The notes under the pieces were generated by a model, which had not been told where the DNA came from, ran no database searches, and saw only the letters and a program-made list of their open reading frames with translations. From the NCBI GenBank assembly GCA_935421135.1, contig OW285193.1, positions 11,642,099 to 11,706,098 on the forward strand: a stretch of DNA of 64,000 nucleotides. Reading direction: 5' to 3'. Positions 1-50,200 of the stretch are shown one piece after another. A program made the position numbers and the translations under genes. This stretch comes from Bugulina stolonifera. Lineage: Eukaryota; Bryozoa; Gymnolaemata; Cheilostomatida; Bugulidae. Position 1 is the stretch's first letter, and every line of letters starts with the position of its first letter.

Positions 1-963
1 CGAGAAGACAATCTTTACATTTTTCTCACTGCACTCCGCCATCTCATGCAATGCAATGACCTCTGCGTTAGTAATTATTACTACAGTAGTGATGGCTGAT
101 GTGGTGGTGATGATGAAGTATTTCTAGCATCTGAAGACGACGGGTGTTGTAACCTCTCATTCACCCATTGGTCAATATCACTGGTAAAAATTTGGTCTAC
201 GAGTTTGACTGAACCGTTTAGTATCTCTCATTGCAAAGAAAGATTAAATATGGCATGAGCTGCGCAAATAACTCTGTGGCAGTATTGAGGGAGATTGAAC
301 ACACACGAACCCATACAGCCCAAAAAGTATGCTACTTTGTTTCCTACTTCGGTGACATTTCTAGTATGAGACAGCAGACTACATTGCTATGCACTCTCTG
401 GCTTGCATGCTCCATGTCACCCATGATGTCCTAAGATTTGTTAAACCAGCCTCGGGGTAGAGGTAACCTTGGCCATGATATAACACTAGGACAATAGCAT
501 ACCAGTTGTATATATTGATGCATGTATCAACCTATGCCTACCATGTTACACCCATGTATTCACTTGAAATGAACATATAGGAGGGTTAAATATACTATAA
601 TTTAGGTTCTGAGGTTTTGAATCAAGCTTCAGATTGGGAGTCCACCAAGAGGAGACAACTCTAAATCACATAATGCATCAAGAGAATTCATAGACATGGA
701 TATTCCTAATGACCTAACCTATTGACTGTAATAAGAAGTTCAATTCTCCCATTTTTTGTCTTTCTCAAAAATACCAAAAGAGAGAACACCTAATGTTACA
801 ATCAAAGAATAGTTAATGAGATGACTACAAAGGTTGATAAGCATTACATCATTAATTAATGATGTAATGCTTATCAACTGTTGTAGTCATCTCATCTCAT
901 CTCAATCTGGCCGAATGCTATTCTCTGTGAAGTTGTAATCTGTCACAATAGTAGCAGTCTTAC
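1..963. other. 3' flank of the CLCA-like gene, no firm exon
   Basis: The missing C-terminal exon or exons should lie here or beyond the edge. One weak candidate on the minus strand begins near 235 with the right phase and reads to a TAG near 90, but it has no convincing CLCA similarity. The only clear structure is the palindrome at 817-893. Confidence 0.3.
817..893. repeat. Near-perfect palindrome (hairpin element)
   Basis: The two arms read gagatgactacaa-ggttgataagcattacatcat and its near-perfect reverse complement, with ttaattaa at the centre. It probably is a small foldback element or a replication-slippage product. Confidence 0.8.
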
Positions 964-1163
964 CTTTTTCATAGTCTAGTCCTGCTCCAGTTGCTGTAAA
1001 CCTCAGCTTTACTTTGTCACCTTCCACCTCTATAACCTGGAGATCATTTATAGCAGCAGGTGGAAGAATAGCTGCGATATTTAGCCCTGGTTCCATGTAT
1101 ACTGTGAAATACCCTGTACTAGCGTATCTCATGAATCCTGGTCTAAAACCACAGTTTATCAGT
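964..1163 (-). CDS. CLCA-like exon 12 (C-terminal domain)
   Basis: It encodes FRPGFMRYASTGYFTV, PPAAINDLQVIEVEG and GAGLDYEKG. These match the CLCA run F-x-R-x-A-S-G-G-x-F...I-x-D-L-x-A...GDDYDxG. Phases are 2 to 1; donor AAAAG|gtaaga. At least one more exon is needed for the C-terminus. Confidence 0.8.
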
Positions 1164-4100
1164 CTCACAAGTATGAAAGAAGAATTTCACTGCTAGCCAA
1201 TGATATTACGGCTTGAAAACCATAATATTATTTTGCAACAGGCTAATAATTTCTTAGTGATAATTTGGAAGTTGTTCTCTCTCTATTTAAAACTCCCCAT
1301 CATCTACATTCAAGTCCAGCCCACGTGTTCAATGAGGATTTGCAAAGCAGAAATTATGTTATATAATACGTAGATTTGGGAAAATTATACTGTTACCGCA
1401 TACGGAATTTTACTAGTATGTGACAGCCTTGCTGTAGGCCTATAGTATGTGCATACCAGTACTGACACACCCTTAAGTCTACACATAGTAGCCATTGATC
1501 TCATTGTGATGTGACTAGTCGATGCCTGCTTACTATACTTTACATGTACGTCTAATAAATCTAAGAATTTAATTCGACACAAAGTCATAACAACCTCACC
1601 CTTCAGCCCTCACTCGCACGTAGTACGTTGCGTTGTAAGGTACATATTGAGAAAAATAAGATGAGTAGATTCCATCATTCTTTATAATATCGGCCCCAGT
1701 TCCGTTGTCCATCAGCTGGATGTGGATTTCAGATGTTGTATTCTCTTCAATACCAAAGATAGTGAGTGTGGCACAGACATTATATTATGGTGCAGATGGT
1801 GTAGATCCTGGTGGCAGGTAGGCGTGTATAGACACATCAGGTACTTTGCTCTCTGTAAATCAGCAGATTGTTGTATAAACTTATAACTGATGCATATTTA
1901 TGTAAATGTCTACAGTATCATAGTTATTCAATTTTGGCCTCAATATAATATTGTGTCTGCAGCTGCATTAGCCAAGGTACAATGATATGGCTTGATCTGC
2001 TGAAATTACTAAATTGTTAAGAGTTTAGCCTTAGAGCCGACGACATATCTCGAATTAGCAATTCCTCGAGCAAACCATACAAGCAGTTGGGATCCAAGTA
2101 CAATCACTACAATCCAGAAACTCGGCTATTTTAAGACCATTCAGCTACACAACATGTTACAGTTACAGTAACATGTCTGCATTCTGTTTGCTTGTGAACT
2201 TTCTATTTTTACATGACTCCTTAGAAAAACAAACATGGCACACGAATATTTGTAGTGAGATACGAAGACTCCAACCAACCTGAGGAAATCCAGAAGACGT
2301 TCTCACTTCTTACATAGGCCTCCATACCGTACTTCTGGTAATAATCTTTCTCAACATCTTGTACCGAGTTTCTTCTCTTTCGACGTGCATCTGTATTCCC
2401 ATCTAGTTCAAAGTTAGGACGTGTGCTTACTATCACAGTGGGCTCAAATGTTACAGATGGATGATTGTTGGATATTCTGAAAAATAAAAACATATCAAAC
2501 ATGGACAAAGGTCCCATCTGGTGAACATTTAAGTGGAAGCTACGTGTAGTCCAAAGTGCAGTTAGGACATTTGGATTTGGTCCGAGTACTTGTACAAATA
2601 AGCATCAACATTTCTTAATAAGACGCTACTTTTTTATAGCATTTTGTTTGGATACAAGGCTCTGTACCCAGTTCTTGCACTTAAAGTACCAAGTTAAATA
2701 TACAATTCATGTCATGAGAATACCAGTTTGATTCATACCATTTATGAGAAATAAACAATGCAGATATTAGATGTAGCATGGCTAGCTGGCACATAAATGC
2801 AAAATGTTGATATAATTCACTTTTACCGCTGACACATCTCACCAGTGATACAATCCTCCCTACCTGTATATGTAGCGGACACTTTCACCGTCTTTCACTG
2901 CCATGTCATTATCAACCAATGAAACAGTCAGCTGACCACTGTTGTACTGAGTAGCGCTAGCATTGACCGCAGGTGTACTGCTACCTTCTCTCAGGACAAT
3001 AAAGGAGAGGTGGGGCGGAGCAGTAGCTACCCAGAAGAAAGAGATCTTGGCCTCCTGATTCAGGTGTTTCTCCACAACAAACCTGCCAGAGATTTCCTCT
3101 CTTGGTCCCACTTTCTCATCCAGACCATAAATCTACGTATATGAGATCACAGACTGCTACGACTCAAGCAGTTGCTAATAATTTACAAATGGAAGTTTCA
3201 CACAATTCAGATGGGATAAAATGTAGTCATATGATCATGTACGGGGTCAGGGTCAAGCTATCGAGCTATGGAGGATTTGGACGTTAAGTAGCCTTTCCAT
3301 TTCTGAAGAGCGTTTACTCAAGCAACAGCAAAGTACACGAGTAGTATAGTCTGTGCAGATATGCACTGACTATATTACTTACACATATGTGGTTTTCAGT
3401 GAACTTACTCGTACAGAATAAACTATTGGTGCAATTACAGCAGTATGCTGCACATACATGTACGCTATAGGTAGCCATATTATATTACTTAGCATACATA
3501 GAACAGTGTCAATTGCTCGCCTCACCTGTACAATTCTACCAGTAGTATTCTGTCTGTTCGTAACCATCTCAGTGTAAGCATCAATTAGAGATGAAGAGTA
3601 TGCCACAGCAGAGAATATGGCTGATCCTGATTTCTTAGCAAGATCTATCAACGCATCTGCGAATGCGATATGTCATCAGTCAGTCTACTGCACACTTGTA
3701 CATATATATATGGTAGCCGAGTGGTCTAGCGCTAGTCACTCTGGTCTTGCAGCAATGACGCAAGTTATCTGCAAGGACGCGGGTTTGAGTCCCGCCAATG
3801 ACCTGGAGGTTTTCGTCCCGAAGAAGGTTTTCCCTCTGTGCCATGTCGAACTATAATAATATCCAGCTGTAGGTGCCATGGTGCCCCCTCGACTAGCTCT
3901 GCTATTGGGCAGCCACGTTAAAGAATTGTGTTTGGCACCACAGATATTATTATTATTATTATTATACATGTATATGCGATATACATGCACATCGTGAGTC
4001 GATCAAACATCTGAGAATATTTAGATTCATCAAATCATAATGCTATGAACTTTATTGCTGGGGTGTACATAGGATACATGGTAAACGTTTATACACATTC

Positions 4101-7100
4101 ACAGTTGCAGTATCATTACAAGCATGTACTATATGTACAACATTTGTATGGTGTTGGGGAAGTTTCAAAGGAAACATAATTTTACCGATAATGGTTTTCT
4201 GAACTGGTGTAGTTAAAAGATAAGAGTTTGTCTATAATTATACCCTGTACTTACTGTCTGCTTCATTAGATAACAAGATGGTGTCAATGAAGAAAGATTC
4301 CAGTTGACTTCTGGTAAATATTTCCTTTAAGTTTGATTTCTTAGGTTTTGTGTCAGCCCCATCCGTTAGCAGTATAAAATATGTTCCTTGAACAGTTCCA
4401 GTTGCATTGTATATAGTATCATATGCAAGTCTTAGTCCGCAGCCTGCCAATAAGACAGTTGCAGTTTTTGAAGTTGTCCTCTCTCCACTTTCCTTCTGCA
4501 TTCCAAGATGGGAGAGAGAGGACAACTTTGCCTTGCCTGACATTATTTCATTTTGGAGTTGCCTATCACCCTAGCTAATATTCAAACAAAAACAAAAAAT
4601 TTGTTTCAAGTTGGTATATTATACACATACAGTATAAGATAAACTTACCAATACAAGTATCAGGTCCAAGTGCTATCCTAGAAAGAGATCTGATAGCCTC
4701 AGCTCTTGCTGCTTTGGAGTTCAGTTTACCAACACCCTGCCTCAGATCAGTTGGGTACACTTGATAGGCATACAGATCAAACCTTACTATCAGTAGCTTT
4801 ACGTTATTCTCCAGAACTATCGATAACATGTGCTCAATCGCCTACAGAAGAAGAAAAAGATATGAATTCATGCATGCATTGTGTAGCAGGTCTCACCTGC
4901 ACAGCTATGAACACTCATAACATAACGATTATACCTGCTATAGCTAAAAGTTATCTTCTCCCAATTTGATAATTCTTTTGAAAGGGAACGTCATGGTGGA
5001 TAAGTTGGGAGGGAACAACTTCTAATGAAAATTATCAACTCTAACAGGGTCCATGAGCAGCTCACATCTGTTACACTTATGCACATACCAGAATAGAGAA
5101 ATGGAAGCATGAGTCAATTGACAAAATGTCAGAACGTATGAAAATTTAACAGACTAAAATACTAAGATAATAATATTCTTTCTTGTATGACATTATTTAC
5201 GAACAACTGTGGTCTAGTGGTTAGAATTCTGAACTTTCATGCAAGAGATCTAGGTTCGACACCTCTGAAAGGTCATTGGTGGCGTTAGCAAGAGCATCCA
5301 ACCTTATAATGCTCCTGTGCCACTTAATCAATGGGAGGGGTGGAAGTGCAAGCCAACATTACCTGGTGCGAGTTACCAGCCTTGATAAAGAGGTAAGTAG
5401 GGCGGGCACTCAGCATAAAAATGACCTCCAACAAAAACTAAAGCCATGACAGATAGGTTCTGCCAGCAGTTTCCTCACATGGAAATGAGAGACGCTTGAA
5501 GAAGTAAAAGCAAGTATTATTTATATGCCCATAAAATGAAAATTATTGCAATTTATAACACATGATGAATTCACCTGTTTAGCTAGATATATACGATTTT
5601 CCCTGTCCATGCTGTTTGAACTGTCAAGTACGAACACTACAGTTCTTGATTCTCTCATTCTCTTTATAACATACATTGGTGGAGTGAACGTCGTGCCTGG
5701 TGCTTTACTAAGACCTGTTAAATATGAAAACAGTATTTATGATCAATTAGGTGCAACATCGAATTATTTCATGCTGTGACAGGTAATGGACTGCTTTGTA
5801 GTTGGCGGCAAATATACTGAGTTGACATCATATATTACAGAAAAGACATATTATTCTCCATCCAAAATTTAATGAAGAACCCTGGCCAAGTCAAATATAC
5901 ATGTATCTAAAGCTCTATCTACCTCAATTTCATTGGCAACTGAAACTATTATGTAAATATATATATAATACATGTATCGAAAATGACCCAAATTCTTAAT
6001 CAAAATGATTGTATAACCCTAAATGAAAAAGTCTTAAAATTTCTCGACCTCCTGGATTAGTGCTATAATTCTTACCAAATTGTTTAAAATCTTTATGTGC
6101 TTGTAGTACATCAGTTATGCTTCTAGAATTACATAGTCGGTTGTGTTGGTTTGGAGCTTGTTTATTGTGGGTTTGATCGTCACAGATGTCTTTTACATTA
6201 TCTAACTCATAGTTAGACATCAATGAGGGAGAGTTAGACTGAGGAGGCTTTACTTTGAATGAACACGAGCTCTTTGGTAAATATGTTAGTGGGTCAATAT
6301 CTGTATAATTCAAGTCTTCTGTAACCTTGCAGCTGGTCTCTGTCTTCAACATGAGACCACATCTACAATGAGACAAGGCAATTTCCATATGTACATGCAT
6401 ATTTAAAATTGTATAAAAACATACATTGAAAATTTATTAGGTAACTTTGAATCTATTACATCTTTGTTGTGGAATGTGGCTCAAAAAGATAGGTTAGTAC
6501 TGTAAAGTTCTTCTGCATTGTGTGTTTGTAAACGGAAATAGGAATTGCAAAACTGATCAAAAATGGTTAAAAAATTACTAACACTAAACATTAGAAATGA
6601 TATTTGAACATGAACAACATTTACTGGCTTATGTAGCATATGTGTCTTTTTAGGGCTTAGCTTCTCAAACATGTACTGTCAAATATTATCGAAGGAGTAA
6701 TCTTTTCTTAGATGTACATAATAGGCTATTAGGACATCTATCTACATGTATATACATATACATGTACATTTACATTTAAAAACTCATAAATGTACAGTGT
6801 ACTGTTGATTCAGTCAATAAACTATTTCTATGTAATAACGTTTCATCAAAGTAATATGGTGCAAGCCTCAACTTGAACCACTTACATGTATTTTCTAAAG
6901 CATTTAGAAGTTAACTGGAGCCCAGGCTGGAATAATGAAAAGTTCATCATATGCTGTACAGTCACTAACCAGACAGTCACTAACCAGACAGTCTACTAAC
7001 CAGACAGTCTACTAGCCAGACAGTCTACTAACCAGACAGTCTACTAACCAGACAGTCTACTAACCAGACAGTCTACTAACCAGACAGTTTACTAACCTGA

Positions 7101-10100: not shown

Positions 10101-13100
10101 TATGCCCCTGGTATCGATTTCATACAGGGTAACCAACTGAGGAACTACAGTCTATCTCAAAACTACACAACAAGCCATTTATTAGGAAATTTCGTTTGCT
10201 ACTGCGATGTAGCTGCTAGCTTTATCTAAGCTTTTTATGGCATTTGGCAAATACCGTAGCTGGTGTCGAAGGATTTAGAAGTTATTACTGAATTTTCAAT
10301 ATGGTTGACCGACTTTGGCTGAAATGACCATCGACCCTCGATTGTAGCTTGTCACGACAGCCTATTCCCGTTTCATCAATTCAGGTTATTTTAATTTTGT
10401 AAAAAGGAGTTGCCAAAATGACAGCCAACCGATCCTTTCACGTGCAACTGTATATGAGGAAGGGATAGATAATCCCAAAAACTTAGTTGCGGACTTCATT
10501 TTATATCTGCAGATCTGCAAATGTTGGTATGGTAAGGTCACACAGCTTATGGTCGTTAGACAGTGTATTTTCTAGGTTGAAATTACAGGCAAAGACTGGT
10601 TTAGGGCCAGTCTCAATACATGCAATATGCCTGGAAAGTGCACTCAGAGATCCACTCTACACACCTCTCTGAATACTACTTAACATAAATAAGAACACTT
10701 AGAATAGTATAATATCATTGTAAATATTATTGTTATACTAAGCAGTTGTTCAAACATGTGGTGTGGCTAAAACACAACTCCGTTGCTCATGCCCTGTGCC
10801 AGGTAGACAATAATCATAATATTCTCATATTATTCTTATTTCTATGACATTAATTGTCGAAATCAAAATGTTGTAGCAAAATTAGTTTCGTGCAAATCCT
10901 GATAACTTGGACCTACACTTTGATTCACACTAAAGACAATAAGGCTATAATTCTACAGTAATTGATACTCAGACATGTAACTGTACATGTATTACACACG
11001 TGCATGTATATATGTGTATATACAGTCATGTATATATGTGTATATACAGTCATGTATATATGTGTATATACAGTCATGTATATATGTGTATATACAGTCA
11101 TGTATATATGTGTATATACAGTCATGTATATATGTGTATATACAGTCATGTATATATGTGTATATACAGTCAAGTATATATGTGTATATACAGTCATGTA
11201 TATATGTGTATATGTGTATATACAGTCATGTATATATGTGTATATGTGTATATACAGTCATGTATATATGTGTATATACAGTCATGTATATATGTGTATA
11301 TACAGTCATGTATATGTGTATATACAGTCATGTATATATGTGTATATACAGTCATGTATATATGTGTATATACAGTCATGTATATATGTGTATATACAGT
11401 CATGTATATATGTGTATATACAGTCATATTTGGTAGAATCTCACTGTTTTATCTCTTTTATTACTATTAGTTTCATGCTATATACTAGAATGAAATATAT
11501 AGCAATCATCAGACAAAAGAGACATAATTAACTACTAATGGACAAGGACATGGTTATGGTGTTTTATATGTAGCGATTGCTTGGCTTACTGCTATACACA
11601 TGTAGCTAAAGAGATTAAGACTAATCTTGGTGTATCAAGTGATTCTATAGTTGAGCATGTGCTTTCTAGAGTGTCTGCATGTAGATATGAGCTCGTTTCG
11701 TTTATTTAGTGTGGCCATGCGTGGTTTGCGTAAAATAAAATATTTCTCAGTCACGCATAGGTGGCAATTTTTGGAAGAGTTGTTATAGGCCTGTGCATGC
11801 GTTATTATTTTCCACCTGATGTTGAAGTTTAATTGCTGTTCCTTCAGTTCCCAGATGTATTTACTTAGCTCTGTGCTAGCCCTTTGGTTTTCATTATTAA
11901 ATGAAGATTTGTGGTTGTACACCCCGCTTCTTGAAAGTGTTTTCTGTCAATCCTATGTAAGTTTGGTCTGGTGTGTTGGCATTGGGTGCTGATACTGTGG
12001 CTTGGTAAATTATGCTAGGTGCTAAACAAATTACCTTCTAATGGGCAATTATCCTTAACTCTGCAGTTGCATCCATGAATAGCTGGGGTGTTGTTTGGTA
12101 TTGGGTTTAGCTTCTTTCTGTTGTTAGATACGATTGTCTTTCTTACATTTCCCATACAGCAGAAACTTAGTTTCACTGTATTTTTGTTGATGATTTTGTT
12201 GAGTGTATTTGATTTAGGGAAAAGTTTACTAATTATGTTGAAGAAAGCTTTTCCAATGTTTGTCTTAACGTTTTTACTGTATGGAGGGTTGAACCAAGTG
12301 ATATTTCTGTCCCGCTTTCTTGTGGTAGGTTTTGCACTAGGTGCTTGTGGTGTGAACTTTAGCTGGTAGTCATATCCACTTTTTCTCAATGCTCAATGCT
12401 GTCATGTATATATGTGTATACACATGTATGTATATATGTGTATACACATGTAAGGTGTGTATATATGTGTATATGCATGTACATGTACAATGTACCTGTC
12501 AGTATTCGAAGTGTGGTTATACGGGAGTATACGGTGTGTACCCACCTCAATTCTAGTGGTTATACGGCAATCAGGCGTGTACCCTCATTTTAATAGCTAG
12601 TTTTCCCCATACAATTGCTGTGGACCTGATAGCGTAGTGGTAGTTGGCACTCATCCATAAGGTCTAGAGTTCAATTCCCACCAGAGCATAACTTTTTTCA
12701 TTTTAGTAATTCACTAATTTCTTAGCTGTACAATACTAATCTGTAAGATTGTATGTACCGTGTACCCACCTAAATTTTTCCACTTCGAACACTGGTACCT
12801 GTATATAATATATATACACCTGTGTATAATATATATTATACATGTACGAGTATACATACATTGTGTATCTACATATATGCTAATAAATACATGCATATAC
12901 ACATGTGCAATGTATTATATACATGTACATGTACAATATAATATTGCTATGAAGGCAAGTGATAAGTAAATAACTTACCTTGATATTATCCAAGTATTCT
13001 GTTTCTGACAATGAACTCTTTAACATCCTGTAGTTTATAGCGACAATGAGTCCTTGGTAACGACCTTGATCATCAACTTCTGCTTTTGAAGGTGACAGAT

Positions 13101-17328: not shown

Positions 17329-18006
17329 AGGAAGAAAAAGGAAACGAAAAGAGGAATGGCAGTTGGTTCTAGAGCCATGATTGGCTGCTCATGAATGGTA
17401 TGTTATCATAGTGAACTTTGACTCTTTATTGACCCTTTACACGTCTTTAGATGGTTGAAATTGTGTTATCGTATTTGTGCTGAAGACATTGTATCATTTT
17501 GGAATATTATCAATGAAAACATAACTCAATAACTTGTCTCTTAGTTCACTAATTCATGTTGTGTGTTCTAGCGTATACCTAGTCTGTTTCCAAATAGTTA
17601 CTTTATAGACGCCTCTTATGTGTGCGTATTGAGACTACACACTAGCTGAGGTCAATAAATAGGACAATCTGATTTATTCCATGGGTTTGAACCATGTTTT
17701 CTGTTGAGAGTCCCGGTGGTTTTGATGATACTACTAGAGTTTATTCCAATAGATATATCATGTGTCATATTATATATATAGAGTATGTCCATACATATTA
17801 GTATACAGTACACATAATGTAGAGTGTGTTTACACGTTGCAGGTCTGGTTAGGTTTCCAATGCAGACGAATCTACTGTATTCACCACATTATCTGGAGCT
17901 AAGTCTAAGATAACCGACTATCTATTTACAACTCTAAACCCTCACATAGACAGGACAGTGTAACAGTAAGCAATCTCAATAGTATACTAGAACTAGTGTA
18001 TATTAT

Positions 18007-18186
18007 ACTGTACATGTACATGTGCTGTACTGTACATGTGCTGTACTGTACATGTGCTGTACTGTACATGTGCTGTACTGTACATGTGCTGTACTGTACA
18101 TGTGCTGTACTGTACATGTGCTGTACTGTACATGTGCTGTACTGTACATGTGTTGTACTGTACATGTGCTGTACTGTACATGTACA
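18007..18186. repeat. 16-bp minisatellite (gctgtactgtacatgt)n
   Basis: About eleven nearly identical copies. The unit is itself largely self-complementary (gtacatgtac). The open frames on both strands here are artefacts of the repeat. Confidence 0.95.
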
Positions 18187-18250
18187 TGTATATACATGGT
18201 ATGTACAATGTAGTGCAATGGTGTTGCTATGATCAATTATTATTCTTTTA

Positions 18251-18854
18251 CATATGGGCCATTCTATGGGGACTGATCAAATTTGCGTGCTGGCCCGACT
18301 CAGATTCGTTTAAAAATTTACAGGTAGAAAGAATTAGTAGGAAACCAGCAAATTTTTGTTCTCAAAAATTCATTAATCCTTGTGTTGAGCACCTCTAATC
18401 CTTAGTTATTGTATATCAACTTTCTTTTCATCAAATCCAGCAGTGTCTATTTGGTCGATTTTCAGTGAATTTGGGTCAAACTAGCTCCGAGAGGTGTTTT
18501 CAGTAACCTCTGACCCCCAACATGGTGATCATACAGGTTTGAATGAGTAATGAAACTGAAGCACGCGAGTGAAAGTATATATGTAACAAATATTACAGCT
18601 CTAAGTATCATACAGTGGCCACAGTAATACATGTAATTTAAATGTTCAGGAATTTAAAAAAATTTCATTTGGAGTTGTCCCCATCACATTTTCCCACTTT
18701 TCAACGAACTGCTGCCGGAACCATAGGGTTCATATAGAGAAAAATTGCTGGTTTCCCACTAATTCAGGGGTGCTCTTTCTACCTGCAACTTTTTAAAAGA
18801 ATCTGAGTCGGGCCAGCACGCAAATTTGATCAGTCCCCATGGAATGGCCCATAT
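18251..18854. mobile_element. Foldback (inverted-repeat) element, about 0.6 kb
   Basis: The left arm starts catatgggccattctatggg and the right arm ends with its reverse complement, ccatggaatggcccatat. Pairing continues over about 115 bp per arm (gactgatcaaatttgcgtgc, ggcccgactcagatt, ggtagaaag, ggaaaccagcaa). The 370-bp centre is unique. Confidence 0.85.
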
Positions 18855-44200: not shown

Positions 44201-47200
44201 TGATTGATGCCTCAGAAGTTGAGGCTGTGCATCTGTACGTACCTCTATCCGTTTCCTCCAAAGATCTGAAGCTAAAGGTATAGGCAAATACATTATATAT
44301 TGTTATATGTAAGTGCATACATGCGAGTATGATGTACGTGCAAGTATATGTAGATCTACATGTACATACAGTGTATATATTGTATAGATACGAGTACATG
44401 TACATACAGTGTATATTATATTGCATACATACGAGTACATGTACATACAGTGTATATATCGCATATATACATGTACATACTATACAGTATATTTATGTTG
44501 CCAGAGCAATACTTACGCAAGCGTATTGCCAGTTCTAATGATATTAGTAGGCAGAGCCTCGCCGAGTCTGTCCCAGCTAACTGTAGCGGAATCAAGAGAA
44601 GGATTACAGACGAGTTGGAGAGTTGATCCTTCTGCGTACTCATTGGGTTTGTTTGGATCTGGCAGACGGCCAACAGCATCCACTGAGACACTTAAACCAC
44701 TCTGTAGTGATAATCAGTTTATTATCAATTTACAAAACCTGTACTATATATACGTAGATTATACGTGTGTAAATAACGATTATGATTTACAAGGAGACTG
44801 CAAGATGATCAGCAGAATTAAACTCATAATTGCTACAATAATTTAAAACCATAAGTGATCATCATCACAAATAATGCCATAATACACAATACCACATGAA
44901 TGTAGTTAACAAGGGAAAATATATATACAACTTGTCCGCGTTCCATCAAATTCTTACAACAAGATGAAATTAACAGTCCAAGCAACTACAATCCTAGCCT
45001 GGATTCCCGACCTTCCATAAATAGTTTGGGTGAGTTAAGACTTAAGTATGGGGCTACTGCAGGACTTATTACAATCAACTACTACGAGGGACTTAGATGA
45101 CTTGGAACCCAAGCTAATACAAGTGAAAATTAAGTAAACTTACAGAGAGCGCATACATTCTATGCGTTGAGCTACCGCTGGCACCATTTGCCAATGTGGC
45201 CGTGCAGATGTAATAGCCAGCATCCTTGACCTTAAAGTCATATATTCTCAAGTACTGTCCACTAACAGCGCTGCCTTCAGGTAACTCAGCGCCGGCTTCC
45301 CCTCGACTCCACTTGATGGTAGCTGATTGAATATCACTGATACACCTCAAGTCAACCTACATTAAACCAAGAGAAAACGACTACCATTAACTACTTAGTA
45401 TGAGGATAGATTAAGTCTAATCCGTACCTTGTTGTGAAGCATTGTGAGAATTTGAACCCAATATGGTTATTGGGGTTCGATGCTCCGCTCATGTTGCTTA
45501 ATGTATAAGCCATCCCTTAGTATGCATGTTACATTTGCGATCACTGCGTCTATTAGCCACAGATAACCAACTATTGTGAGTTGGCTATATATGGCTGATA
45601 GACCCAGTGAATACGAAAACATACCATGCATGCTAATGAGATGGGGAGAATTGTCACCCCATACCCAATAGCTACCCTAAAGATATGTACTTCCATGTAC
45701 ATGTATATGACTGTATAAATTATAGTTAAGCTTACCGTTTCACCAACAGTGACTCCTTCCTTAGCTTCAATCGTAACTGAGGGTGTCTGAGGGTCAACTA
45801 TTACAGATCTGCTGACGTATAGAGTGTGGACCAGAGGCTCGGATTCACCGAAACGGTTTGAGGCTACACACAGGTATCGACCTTGGTCTCCCTGTTTAAC
45901 ATTCAGGATTCTACAAAATAATAATATATAATTGATTTACAGATACATCGTGGGTGCATATATCCTGTGTGATGGCACGTCATGTGTTTGATCTGCACAT
46001 GCCACACACATATAGATGATAAAAAAGGAAATCAGCATAAAAAAACGATTTTACAAAGATAATTTTATCATATTCAGAACCATGCACTTGTAGTCATATA
46101 GTTGTTTGTTGTCATACATTGTACATTATATTAGGTGAAATGAGCTGTTTAGGATAGCCTGGGCTCCAGACCATGGACATACAGGAGAGGATATCGAGTC
46201 AGATTAGAGCTCCCGAATTTCTTAATATAAGACAGCTTGAAAACTAAGCTAGTGTTAACTGTGTAAACCATGCACTACTTGGTCAGCATCTGCTTATCCA
46301 ATCAAGTAGCAGCACTGAGAACAGTGTTATTGGTGCCAAATTCATAATACACGTATCAGAAAACATGAACAAAACACTCATTAACACCCATAGATATACA
46401 AGTACAACGCCATCTATCTTGACACCTAGAATTATATACATGTACTACTAGAAAGCAAAGTTATTCTTGTCCAGATTCGATCCTTCTCAGATATTAGAGC
46501 TGTTAGGAATGTTCAAAGCCAATCTTCCACCTGCATACAAATGCATGTATTAAAACTAAATGTTTAGCTAACTGAAACAGCAATACATTGAGCACAAGGC
46601 CATTTCCCAGGCAACCAATAGTGAAGGCTAACTGTAGTGGCCATCTTGTTAGTAGACTACAATACTTCTAGATAACAGCGAGCGGCGACCCTTACGTTAG
46701 CCGAGCCCACCCAGGCGAGTTGCTCAAGGTAGCTGACTCAGGAAGTTCATCGCCTTCTCGTCTCCAAACAATATTGCTGAGCGTATCGGTAGTCTGGCAT
46801 GTCATGTAGACATCACTGCCGATGGATGCCTGGATATCAGTCTGAGGGCTACGAGGCCGAGCAGGCCTCACGCTGTCACCTGGTTCAATAAACAAACGCT
46901 TTAAGATCTCAGTATATGAACCTAGTGACTCGTCTACCGAAGTAGACGAGGCTACACAATTCCCAACTCACCGAAGAGATCTTGAATTAGACAATGAGTC
47001 ATCAGATAATTTCCCGTCCCCTTCACGTTTCCAAGATGTCCGCGCATCTCTGTCATCGGTAAAACAGGTCATTATAACAGAGCTACCTTCTTGGGACCTG
47101 TGAACTGTGGGTTCACCCGGAGCTGCCAAGGGTTTGGATGGTAGACCAACCTGTGCATCTTAGCAAAACAATGGCAGAGAAAATTACACTGGTGCAAATG

Positions 47201-50200
47201 TATTGAAGTTAGACATAATTGTTGGTTGATCAGTATGTTATACAGATACAACAAATATAGCAGATAGAGAGAGGGCTATACTAATAACTAATAATTTGTT
47301 AAATTATTACAGTATTAGTGCAAACCAGGCAGAGCGGGTGTAAATATGGACAGAGTTACTAGCACTAGTAAATCAAAGACGGCCTTTGGGTAATCAAGAG
47401 AAGATATTTTTAGTTAAATCATGGAGATTTATATAGACTAGATTATGATTGTGTTCTCACCAATAACATGAACTATAGCAGCAGTTGTTTTGGTAGTACC
47501 ATTGACATAGAGCGCTGTGCAATAATATATTCCACCATCTTTGCGTTTAATTCGGGGAATGATTAGTAGTTGTTTTTCAAAATAATGTTGAGACGGCAAA
47601 GCCGTTCCATTAGGTCTTGACCAACCTAACTGGCTGGCACCAGTTGGTCGTAGACATTCCAGCACAACCTGGCCATTCTCCTCAACCGTGTGTCGATTGG
47701 GTGCTGCAATGATGCTTCCTCCAGCCCCAGAGTTCCCTATATATAGTCAGCATGAGCAAAGCAAGCAGGGTAAGATGCAGCGGGACAGAAAAGGTGGAAC
47801 ACACAAATAATATAACCTATGCATGAGGTTGTTTAATTTTGAACAAGCTTCTTTGCATTCATTTATGTAAAGAAGAATCACCACCATGTATGTGACCTTA
47901 ATTCATCAGTTGAACCAGAAATAAAGCCAATGCATGTTAAAAATATTCTTGAACTCATTCACGTCTAATTGAAACAATAATGAATTCTGCTATTATTTGA
48001 GAACAATACAATCTCATGGTTAATACAAGTCATATTACCACATCAACTGACTTGTTTACTTTCAGTTCCAACAGCACATGGCTAGTTTGGGCAGCCACAA
48101 ACATGCATACAGTGTATGCACAAATGTTACAGTGGACATGTACAATGTTAATAGCAATTCAATCTAGCCTACTGCAAAATATATAATCTAACATACATAG
48201 TACATGTATACCCCGTATACGCCAGTAACCTAACATGCACATGATATACCTATCATAAGGAGATACAAGAAATTAATATGCACATGCCATACCTATAGAA
48301 ACACTGATGGTTGCAGACGGGCCAGTCCCGGCAGAGTTGACAGCGTAACAGAAGTATCTACCACCATCGTCAGCATTTAAGTTGTACAATCTAGAGATAA
48401 TGACAAATAATATTCATATAAAAATACACTATAGTTATACACTTAGTTAAAGTTATTGAGCGTTACACAGTAGGGACACACACACGACCTCTACTGCGCC
48501 TGAAGGTCAAAACATCTACAGTTAGTCACAACGTATGGTGGACATGTATATTACACAAACACCATAAAATACATGTTATGTACTCTACATACTCTAGCAG
48601 TTGGTTCTTGTCTGCCAGTCTGGAAGATGATGGCAGATTCTTTCCAGCTTCTCTAGTCCAAACGATTCTATCAGCTCCTGCAGGTAGAAGGCACTGCATG
48701 CGTATCACTCCTCCAACACTACCAGTATAGCTATTGTCTAAAGCGGAGGGTTGTCCTGGTCGTTCTGCAACATAAGCACATACTACATGGCATACAGTAA
48801 GTACATTATATAATAATAGCCCTAGGTAACTGCAGCTATGTGCATAATACATGTATGTGTCATAACATTACACATGTAAACAATAATCATCTGGTGTGGC
48901 CAAATTAACTAACAGCATTGCTCTATTAGAGCTACCAAATCTAGTATGAAGGAATGGAAGGAGTTGCATCACAGGCTATTGCATAGAAGCACTGTCTAGT
49001 GTAGGAGATGACTGATACAATAACATGGCTCACGGTTGGTATACTTACGGATCACTACAGGGCCACCACCTAAAATTGTACAACATAAGAGTTAGTTAAT
49101 ACATTCTATCGACGAGCAGATATTAACGTAACGTGTTTTACAGGTACGGAGAGTACACAATCATAGGGATCTTACGACCAAAAGGATTAAGTTCGTATTA
49201 CTATGTTATTGCATATAATAAGACCTTGTTGGTCTGGCAACCAATGAAATAGCAGGTGAGAATATACACGTGTATATATAAAAACAACACTCATCCTAAA
49301 GATTAAATATTAACTAAGTGAATCGAGTATTGGAGAACTTACCAGATACAAATACTTGGAAGGCTGCGGGTCTAGAACTGCCTGCTGCATTGCTTACAAT
49401 ACAGCGGTATGTACCTTCATTTGCTTCCTTTAGGTTTCTTATCCTGGAGAAAGTTGATAAATTTAATTTTAAATTTATTTATACGGAAAGTTCAAAGCAT
49501 CAGTCTACATATTATCACAGTCTACATATTATCATAGTCTAGGTCTTCAATCATAACCTTGTATCTTCTCATTATATTTATCATGTGCGTATCTCTTAAG
49601 TGATGTTTACTTTGATTTGAAAAAGTTTTTCCAACACTTGAAATATATTTGATGTACATTACACCTATGCTTATTAGTTTTACATGTAGAACATAAACAC
49701 ATAACAAAGTCATACTACATAAGATATAAAACATAGTCTGGGTTCCGTAACTGGACCAGCTAGGCCATTGGAGGATTAATTTAAAAGACTCAACAGTTAA
49801 GTATACCAGATACACGTACTCAAGTACTGCATTGTTGGTGTTAGCATTAGCTGGTAGAGCTCCATTGTCAAAGGTCCACCTGTAAGACACTGGAGTTGTG
49901 GAGGAGGCGTGGCATCGTAGAATAGCAGTGTCCCCTACTGCGTACTGGTTTCTTCCTTCACCTGCTCCACTACCTCTCACATTAGCATTGGTTGGAGGAC
50001 CTGAAAGATTGAATTATAATTTTGCGAATGAACATGTTGTATCAGCATAACACCATGAGTAAACAAGCTAGCTCACAGTTTGGTTTCCTAAAACTATACC
50101 AACATGCTTCAACCTCAAGCAGATGACCATGCACCAATATCCTTCAAACTGCAATGAAACTGTAAATTTGTGAATATGTAAGCACTGCAGTATACAGTAT

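Follow-up and report, generated by a model that had tools for sequence, protein, structure and literature searches.

Does a bryozoan perlecan gene carry two alternative exons for the first half of a single immunoglobulin (Ig) domain, of which splicing must take one and leave the other? The question is raised by two neighbouring exons, here called w26a and w26b, on the minus strand of a 64,000-nucleotide stretch of Bugulina stolonifera DNA (the window, that is, the whole stretch analysed, apparently part of chromosome 7). A sequence-only reading had proposed that the pair is frame-enforced, so that either exon but never both can be joined to its neighbours, and that it represents a Dscam-like domain choice in a basement-membrane proteoglycan. 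We followed up this proposal by examining the gene, the joins between exons, the age of the two copies, and the short intron that separates them.

A perlecan-like gene on the minus strand

29722 to 64000 in the window, continuing upstream to about 83035 (window numbering), minus strand: perlecan-like gene model (exon chain, Pfam, Watersipora match).

The gene model is an ad hoc chain of exons on the minus strand, lengthened upstream with two additional genomic stretches and built without transcript support, its N-terminus and small exons being uncertain. Its modules run from LDLa repeats through Laminin_B and laminin-EGF to a long Ig array and then LamG/EGF, and two Ig domains lie near the LDLa repeats, one among them and one after. 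Pfam, applied to the N- and C-terminal pieces and to three versions of the w26 domain, placed seven LDLa, Laminin_B, Ig, LamG, and EGF domains above cut-off, and laminin-EGF below it in the same pieces (17.7 against a cut-off of 27). With the laminin-type region as query, the perlecan of Watersipora subatra, another cheilostome bryozoan, showed 43% identity across the full 801 residues and was the only protein with 100% coverage among the 120 best of 1,079 matches. Judged by its domain order, the minus-strand gene is perlecan-like (HSPG2), and the make-up read earlier from the letters is borne out by both the Pfam domains and the Watersipora match. A 481-residue query from the Ig array retrieved 26 perlecans, hemicentins, and other Ig proteins at 21–30% identity, none of these 26 being bryozoan (the 1,862 candidates with the most words in common with the query were scored). 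Rfam yielded nothing at gathering scores in the window, and a scan of viral contigs for a chance relative of the region gave no match.

Several other features were noticed along the way. The Ig domain among the LDLa repeats lies at 72391-71608 (window numbering), and the N-terminal piece gave no SEA hit in Pfam, in which respect the N-terminal layout of vertebrate perlecan is perhaps different from that of the Bugulina model. Ser/Thr-rich stretches at 38985-38896 and 33180-33076 (minus strand), with uncertain exon limits, are possible glycosylated linkers. Elsewhere in the window, two arrays of short repeats (10928-11528 and 17909-18395) appear by eye to be open on either strand in more than one frame, and minus-strand open pieces at 905-6433 may represent a second gene on that strand; the part at 4241-4570 (minus strand) has a von Willebrand A-like look and, by eye, perhaps belongs to a calcium-channel alpha2/delta-type protein.

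Two first-half exons and one second half

47461 to 47736, minus strand: w25, a single exon holding an entire Ig domain, entered and left in phase 1, the upstream partner (exon chain, junctions).
46972 to 47158, minus strand: w26a, phase 1 to 2, 187 nt, encoding an Ig first half, probably the ancestral copy (junctions, Pfam, Watersipora).
46871 to 46873, minus strand: weak alternative acceptor, with an exon start at 46872, that puts w26b in frame after w26a (junctions, splice score).
46696 to 46879, minus strand: w26b, candidate alternative first half for the same Ig domain, phase 1 to 2, 184 nt (junctions, Pfam).
45736 to 45910, minus strand: w27, the one second half that both would share, followed by the beginning of the next Ig domain, phase 2 to 0 (junctions, profile scan).
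45144 to 45356, minus strand: w28, the remainder of the next Ig domain (Watersipora comparison).

The coordinates and phases originally assigned to w26a and w26b hold: both exons are flanked by AG and GT, are entered in phase 1, and are left in phase 2. The donors of the pair are GTGAGT and GTAAGG, and the splice-site scores of both exons fall inside the range of the 70 gene-model exons compared. Either exon joins w25 to w27 in frame, giving a whole model of 3879 aa with w26a or 3878 aa with w26b, in each case with 0 stops. When w26a is joined to w26b at the normal w26b acceptor, the junction reads CG/G TGA, an instant stop as had been stated, and w25 joined straight to w27 meets a stop two codons on. 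The stronger assertion that exactly one exon must be chosen survives in part: products with both exons or with neither meet an early stop, but an acceptor at 46872, which lies 7 nt inside w26b and scores -1.28 against +1.67 for the acceptor at 46879, gives an open w26a-w26b join. Several two-exon Ig domains in the array follow the phase pattern 1 to 2, then 2 to 1, a pattern under which two consecutive exons of the 1 to 2 type cannot both be read. The two exons are identical at 20 of 59 aa (shuffle z 7.9), and w26b resembles the exon at 48764-48593 almost as strongly (z 7.3). They are of like length, share the same phases, and are homologous, the features (similar length, same phases, homology) by which mutually exclusive exons have been sought according to the available portions of published surveys. 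On these reading frames, the observation of frame-constrained, paired, putative half-Ig exons is confirmed.

The argument also depends on w27 being the only second half at hand. A profile scan covered 1,034 minus-strand open pieces of 18 aa or more between 27501 and 83902 with first-half and second-half profiles. Between w25 and w27 it detects a pair of first halves (at 63.4 and 67.2 bits, with both exons included in the profile) and, in w27, a second half, in agreement with the single shared second half claimed before, and the search of these introns for a missed half-Ig exon returned other matches of at most 2.3 bits. A profile built without the pair still recovers w26b at 29.7 bits and w26a at 17.4 bits, and both joined products score as a complete Ig domain in Pfam (I-set, 36.0 and 49.5 bits against a cut-off of 23.7). 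One stretch near 46529, in the intron between w26b and w27, looks by eye faintly like a second half that has been lost, a reading ruled out by the same profile scan.

Searches of the genome (234,951,659 bases) at E<=0.1 returned for each exon a sole further match, its own partner, at 42–43% identity; three candidates were scored per search, and weaker Ig relatives are thus missed. A protein search over the w25 tail, w26a, w26b, and w27 gave matches for 0 of 343 candidates at E<=10, having scored proteins of about 110–350 aa that share words with the query. In the aligned codons of the two exons 61 of 168 bases are the same, and only 12 of 56 third positions agree, so that silent sites are saturated. 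We simulated neutral drift to the observed distance: the frame was kept in 1.7% (w26a) and 2.5% (w26b) of 20,000 runs, and not one of 20,000 copies drifted from either exon retained the frame together with the Cys, the Trp, and the splice dinucleotides. At an assumed identity of 0.70, all features were retained in 0.3% (w26a) and 0.5% (w26b). Because silent sites are saturated and yet the frame, Cys, Trp, and splice sites are intact, both w26a and w26b have long been under selection, which is past selection and not proof of present use.

A probable ancestral pair and a later addition

Comparison with Watersipora gives some indication of which copy is older. A collinear best match in the Watersipora protein exists for 28 of the 32 Ig-array exons, those without one being 59882-59577, 55255-55132, w26b, and w28. 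w25 has 57.5% identity to Watersipora residues 1875-1954, w26a has 34.7% over 49 aa with the syntenic Ig (1967-2011) as its best match, and the second half in w27 has 54.5% over 33 aa to residues 2017-2049; both w26a and the second half in w27 thus point to the Watersipora Ig that lies just after the w25 counterpart. The best match of w26b (36%) is instead the domain of exon 48764-48593, not the syntenic Ig, and the one Watersipora protein examined has a single first half at the syntenic place. Since w26a and w27 match the same Watersipora Ig and w26b matches elsewhere, w26a and w27 are probably the ancestral pair and w26b the addition, as judged from one relative. Among the other first-half exons, 8 of 10 stand at 44–66% to Watersipora, above w26a; the other low ones are 41176-41017, at 34.9%, and 55255-55132, with no collinear match.

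In phylogenetic trees w26b groups with exon 48764-48593 (93/84). The description of w26a and w26b as paralogous is fair in view of their mutual genome matches at 42–43%, but they need not be sisters. A clade of w26a and w26b (p-AU 0.196) and one of both exons with their Watersipora counterpart (p-AU 0.104) are not rejected, and the grouping of w26a with the Watersipora counterpart (p-AU 0.506) fits as well as the best tree. The next Ig domain (end of w27 plus w28, 45804-45144, minus strand) is without a collinear Watersipora match of its own, and the best match of w28 is the same Watersipora Ig as that of w26a and w27 (1981-2045). As this next domain is also most like the Watersipora domain of w26a and w27, a local domain duplication probably occurred at the w26-w28 spot. 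Elsewhere in the gene, a whole-exon Ig with extra cysteines (DCRLTCKNISVCDPPP) at 59882-59577 (minus strand) has no collinear match in Watersipora perlecan.

A short intron with a predicted fold

46880 to 46971, minus strand: intron between w26a and w26b, 92 nt (intron comparison).
46929 to 46950, minus strand: 9-bp hairpin CUCGUCUAC-UUCG-GUAGACGAG inside the 92-nt intron (folding, genome pattern search).
46875 to 46929, minus strand: predicted stem of 11–12 bp with one mismatch, pairing the w26b 3' splice site (folding, weak against shuffles).

Introns and splice sites were compared over 70 gene-model exons, both w26 exons included, and 69 introns, two tiny uncertain exons being omitted. The 92-nt intron is the second shortest of the 69 (median 388). 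Perfect stems with at least 9 pairs occur in 6 of the 69, and that of the 92-nt intron has the top G+C share (5/9); allowing up to 2 mismatches, the hairpin sequence occurs at 1 place in the genome and a reversed control pattern at 4. Of the 70 compared, the w26b acceptor is the second least accessible, and the local folding energy around it is the lowest, with no correction for composition; the w26a donor is the 15th least accessible and the w26b donor the most accessible of all. The best-scoring predicted branch-point A lies near 46909, in the loop of the acceptor stem, at 63 nt from the w26a donor in linear distance and at about 41 nt with the hairpin folded out.

Measured against shuffled sequences these structures stand out little. 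As stable a fold arose in 12 of 200 shuffles for the intron alone and in 4 of 200 for 126 nt, and for the intron plus 12 nt in 79 of 500, with the acceptor as paired in 69 of 500 and both in 20 of 500; a 541-nt fold had no excess stability (37 of 100 shuffles equally stable). Inverted repeats in 45700-47900, sought as docking/selector pairing, are all short. An 11-nt perfect complement between 47458-47468, at the w25 donor, and 46325-46335, in the w26b-w27 intron, covers the splice site and is, by our own estimate, at about chance level. The accessible portion of a survey of human exclusive clusters (PMC5740500) gives 57 (9%) with less than 50 nt between donor and branch point, a potential steric interference, and 377 (60%) containing exons that are not multiples of three, so that exclusion enforced by frame is ordinary. 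The linear distance of 63 nt exceeds 50 and is counted against exclusive choice at this locus. The short intron, hairpin, and paired acceptor together suggest steric exclusion, and we offer steric exclusion with decay as a back-up as the likeliest mechanism, on weak statistics.

Exclusive choice and other explanations

We consider it rather probable that w26a and w26b constitute a two-member mutually exclusive cluster in Bugulina stolonifera perlecan. One Ig domain would be started by either exon and completed by w27, with splicing picking either w25-w26a-w27 or w25-w26b-w27. Direct joining of w26a to w26b would probably be held down by the shortness and folding of the 92-nt intron, in which the w26a donor may be too near the likeliest branch point (about 63 nt, or about 41 nt with the hairpin out) and the w26b acceptor is predicted to be paired, and double or empty products would hit an early stop and be expected to decay. 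The outcome would be two perlecans differing in one Ig domain. We infer that both exons are spliced at present, that wrong products decay, and that the two forms bind differently. A bolder version, in which the hairpin-tightened 92-nt intron sets the choice and its outcome varies with tissue or zooid type (feeding zooids, avicularia, rhizoids), modules of one genotype then depositing perlecans of different kinds, seems to us decidedly doubtful.

A different history could have produced the same layout: local domain duplication, then loss of one second-half exon, leaving a stranded first half that is decaying and has stayed open through recency, with only one first half still spliced. We hold this to be unlikely, though it deserves real weight. 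Duplication here is probable, given that w28 shares its best match (1981-2045) with w26a and w27, and both w26a and w26b are unusually diverged from Watersipora, and such low identities (34.7% and 36%) would also result if constraint had been relaxed in an exon on its way to being lost. Among proteins of about 110–350 aa with words in common with the pair, the protein search yielded no match, the shortness of the intron could have come from a deletion, and past constraint alone would account for the intact features if the loss was recent. This history sits less well with the saturated silent divergence, at which the frame, Cys, Trp, phases, and splice sites are nonetheless intact in both exons, with the normal scores of both splice-site pairs, and with the profile scan, in which the adjacent introns show no remnant of a second half.

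Exclusive choice would also fail if one mRNA took in both w26a and w26b by way of the 46872 acceptor; the protein would then have two first halves but a single second half. The join at 46872 is in frame without a stop, the exon chain used it each of the two times it was built, since w26b increased the chain score, and Pfam scores the whole product at 56.5 bits (Ig_3) against 41.3 and 43.4 for the single versions. Nevertheless, the acceptor is weak (-1.28 against +1.67) and lies 7 nt past the normal AG, a first half would be left over without a second half, and Pfam passes just one Ig stretch in the product, all of which makes double inclusion very improbable in our view. We give even less credence to coincidence or misassembly, that is, to one exon being no real Ig half or to two copies having been misjoined: Pfam and the leave-out profile scores support both exons as Ig halves, the pair occupies one place in a HiFi-based assembly of QV 55.5, and a base identity of 36% between the exons implies that they are not a haplotype duplication.

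Use of both exons would give perlecan, a core component of basement membranes, a switchable Ig domain, here in a bryozoan, of a kind otherwise known from receptors and recognition proteins, and the animal would make two kinds of perlecan scaffold. RNA-seq of Bugulina stolonifera exists, both poly(A) reads of the genome project (ERR10123683) and the reads of individual zooid types by Treibergs & Giribet (SRX7735396), which makes the prediction testable without new bench work.

Relation to known systems

In the perlecan gene unc-52 of C. elegans, exons are included or skipped. Published work on unc-52, in its accessible portions, describes alternative splicing of Ig-coding exons under the control of MEC-8 and CCAR-1, and an exon skip is reported for Drosophila trol in the part available. 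The Bugulina case resembles unc-52 in the alternative splicing of perlecan Ig exons and differs in that no choice between paralogous half-Ig exons is noted in those portions. The earlier statement that no such choice had been described for perlecan agrees with searches of a literature thin in subscription papers, in which no exclusive half-Ig pair in a perlecan came up among the matches listed, and no study of exclusive perlecan half-Ig exons figures among the matches listed in the bryozoan literature.

In the exon 4 and 6 clusters of Dscam, the exons that vary code for first halves of an Ig domain, and the second half is shared. The term Dscam-like is thus apt for the layout predicted here, first-half variants with a shared second half, but less so for its scale, as the Bugulina pair has two variants only and no docking/selector pairing is established. 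Arthropod Dscam, as described in the available parts of the literature, selects among numerous variants, 48 of them in exon 6, by docking/selector pairing. The two variants and the lack of established docking/selector pairing make FGFR2 IIIb/IIIc a closer parallel in scale than Dscam. As for mechanism, Dscam exon 17, which has two exclusive exons, reportedly combines steric hindrance with RNA structure; this is what we propose for w26a and w26b, the Bugulina structure being weak against shuffles. What alternates in FGFR IIIb/IIIc is the second half of the Ig domain. The accessible portions of published accounts describe the IIIb and IIIc exons of FGFR1-3 as tandem-duplicated, each coding for a region of the third Ig domain and used in a mutually exclusive manner, and propose for FGFR2 that decay of double products helps exclusive choice. 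The Bugulina pair shares with them the number of exons, two, and the predicted exclusive choice within one Ig domain, whereas FGFR is a receptor that varies a second half and has expression data, and the Bugulina pair belongs to a matrix proteoglycan, would vary a first half, and is known from sequence alone. FGFR and Dscam thus provide known examples of exclusive exons that cover part of an Ig domain, and the perlecan case in a bryozoan is a predicted addition to them.
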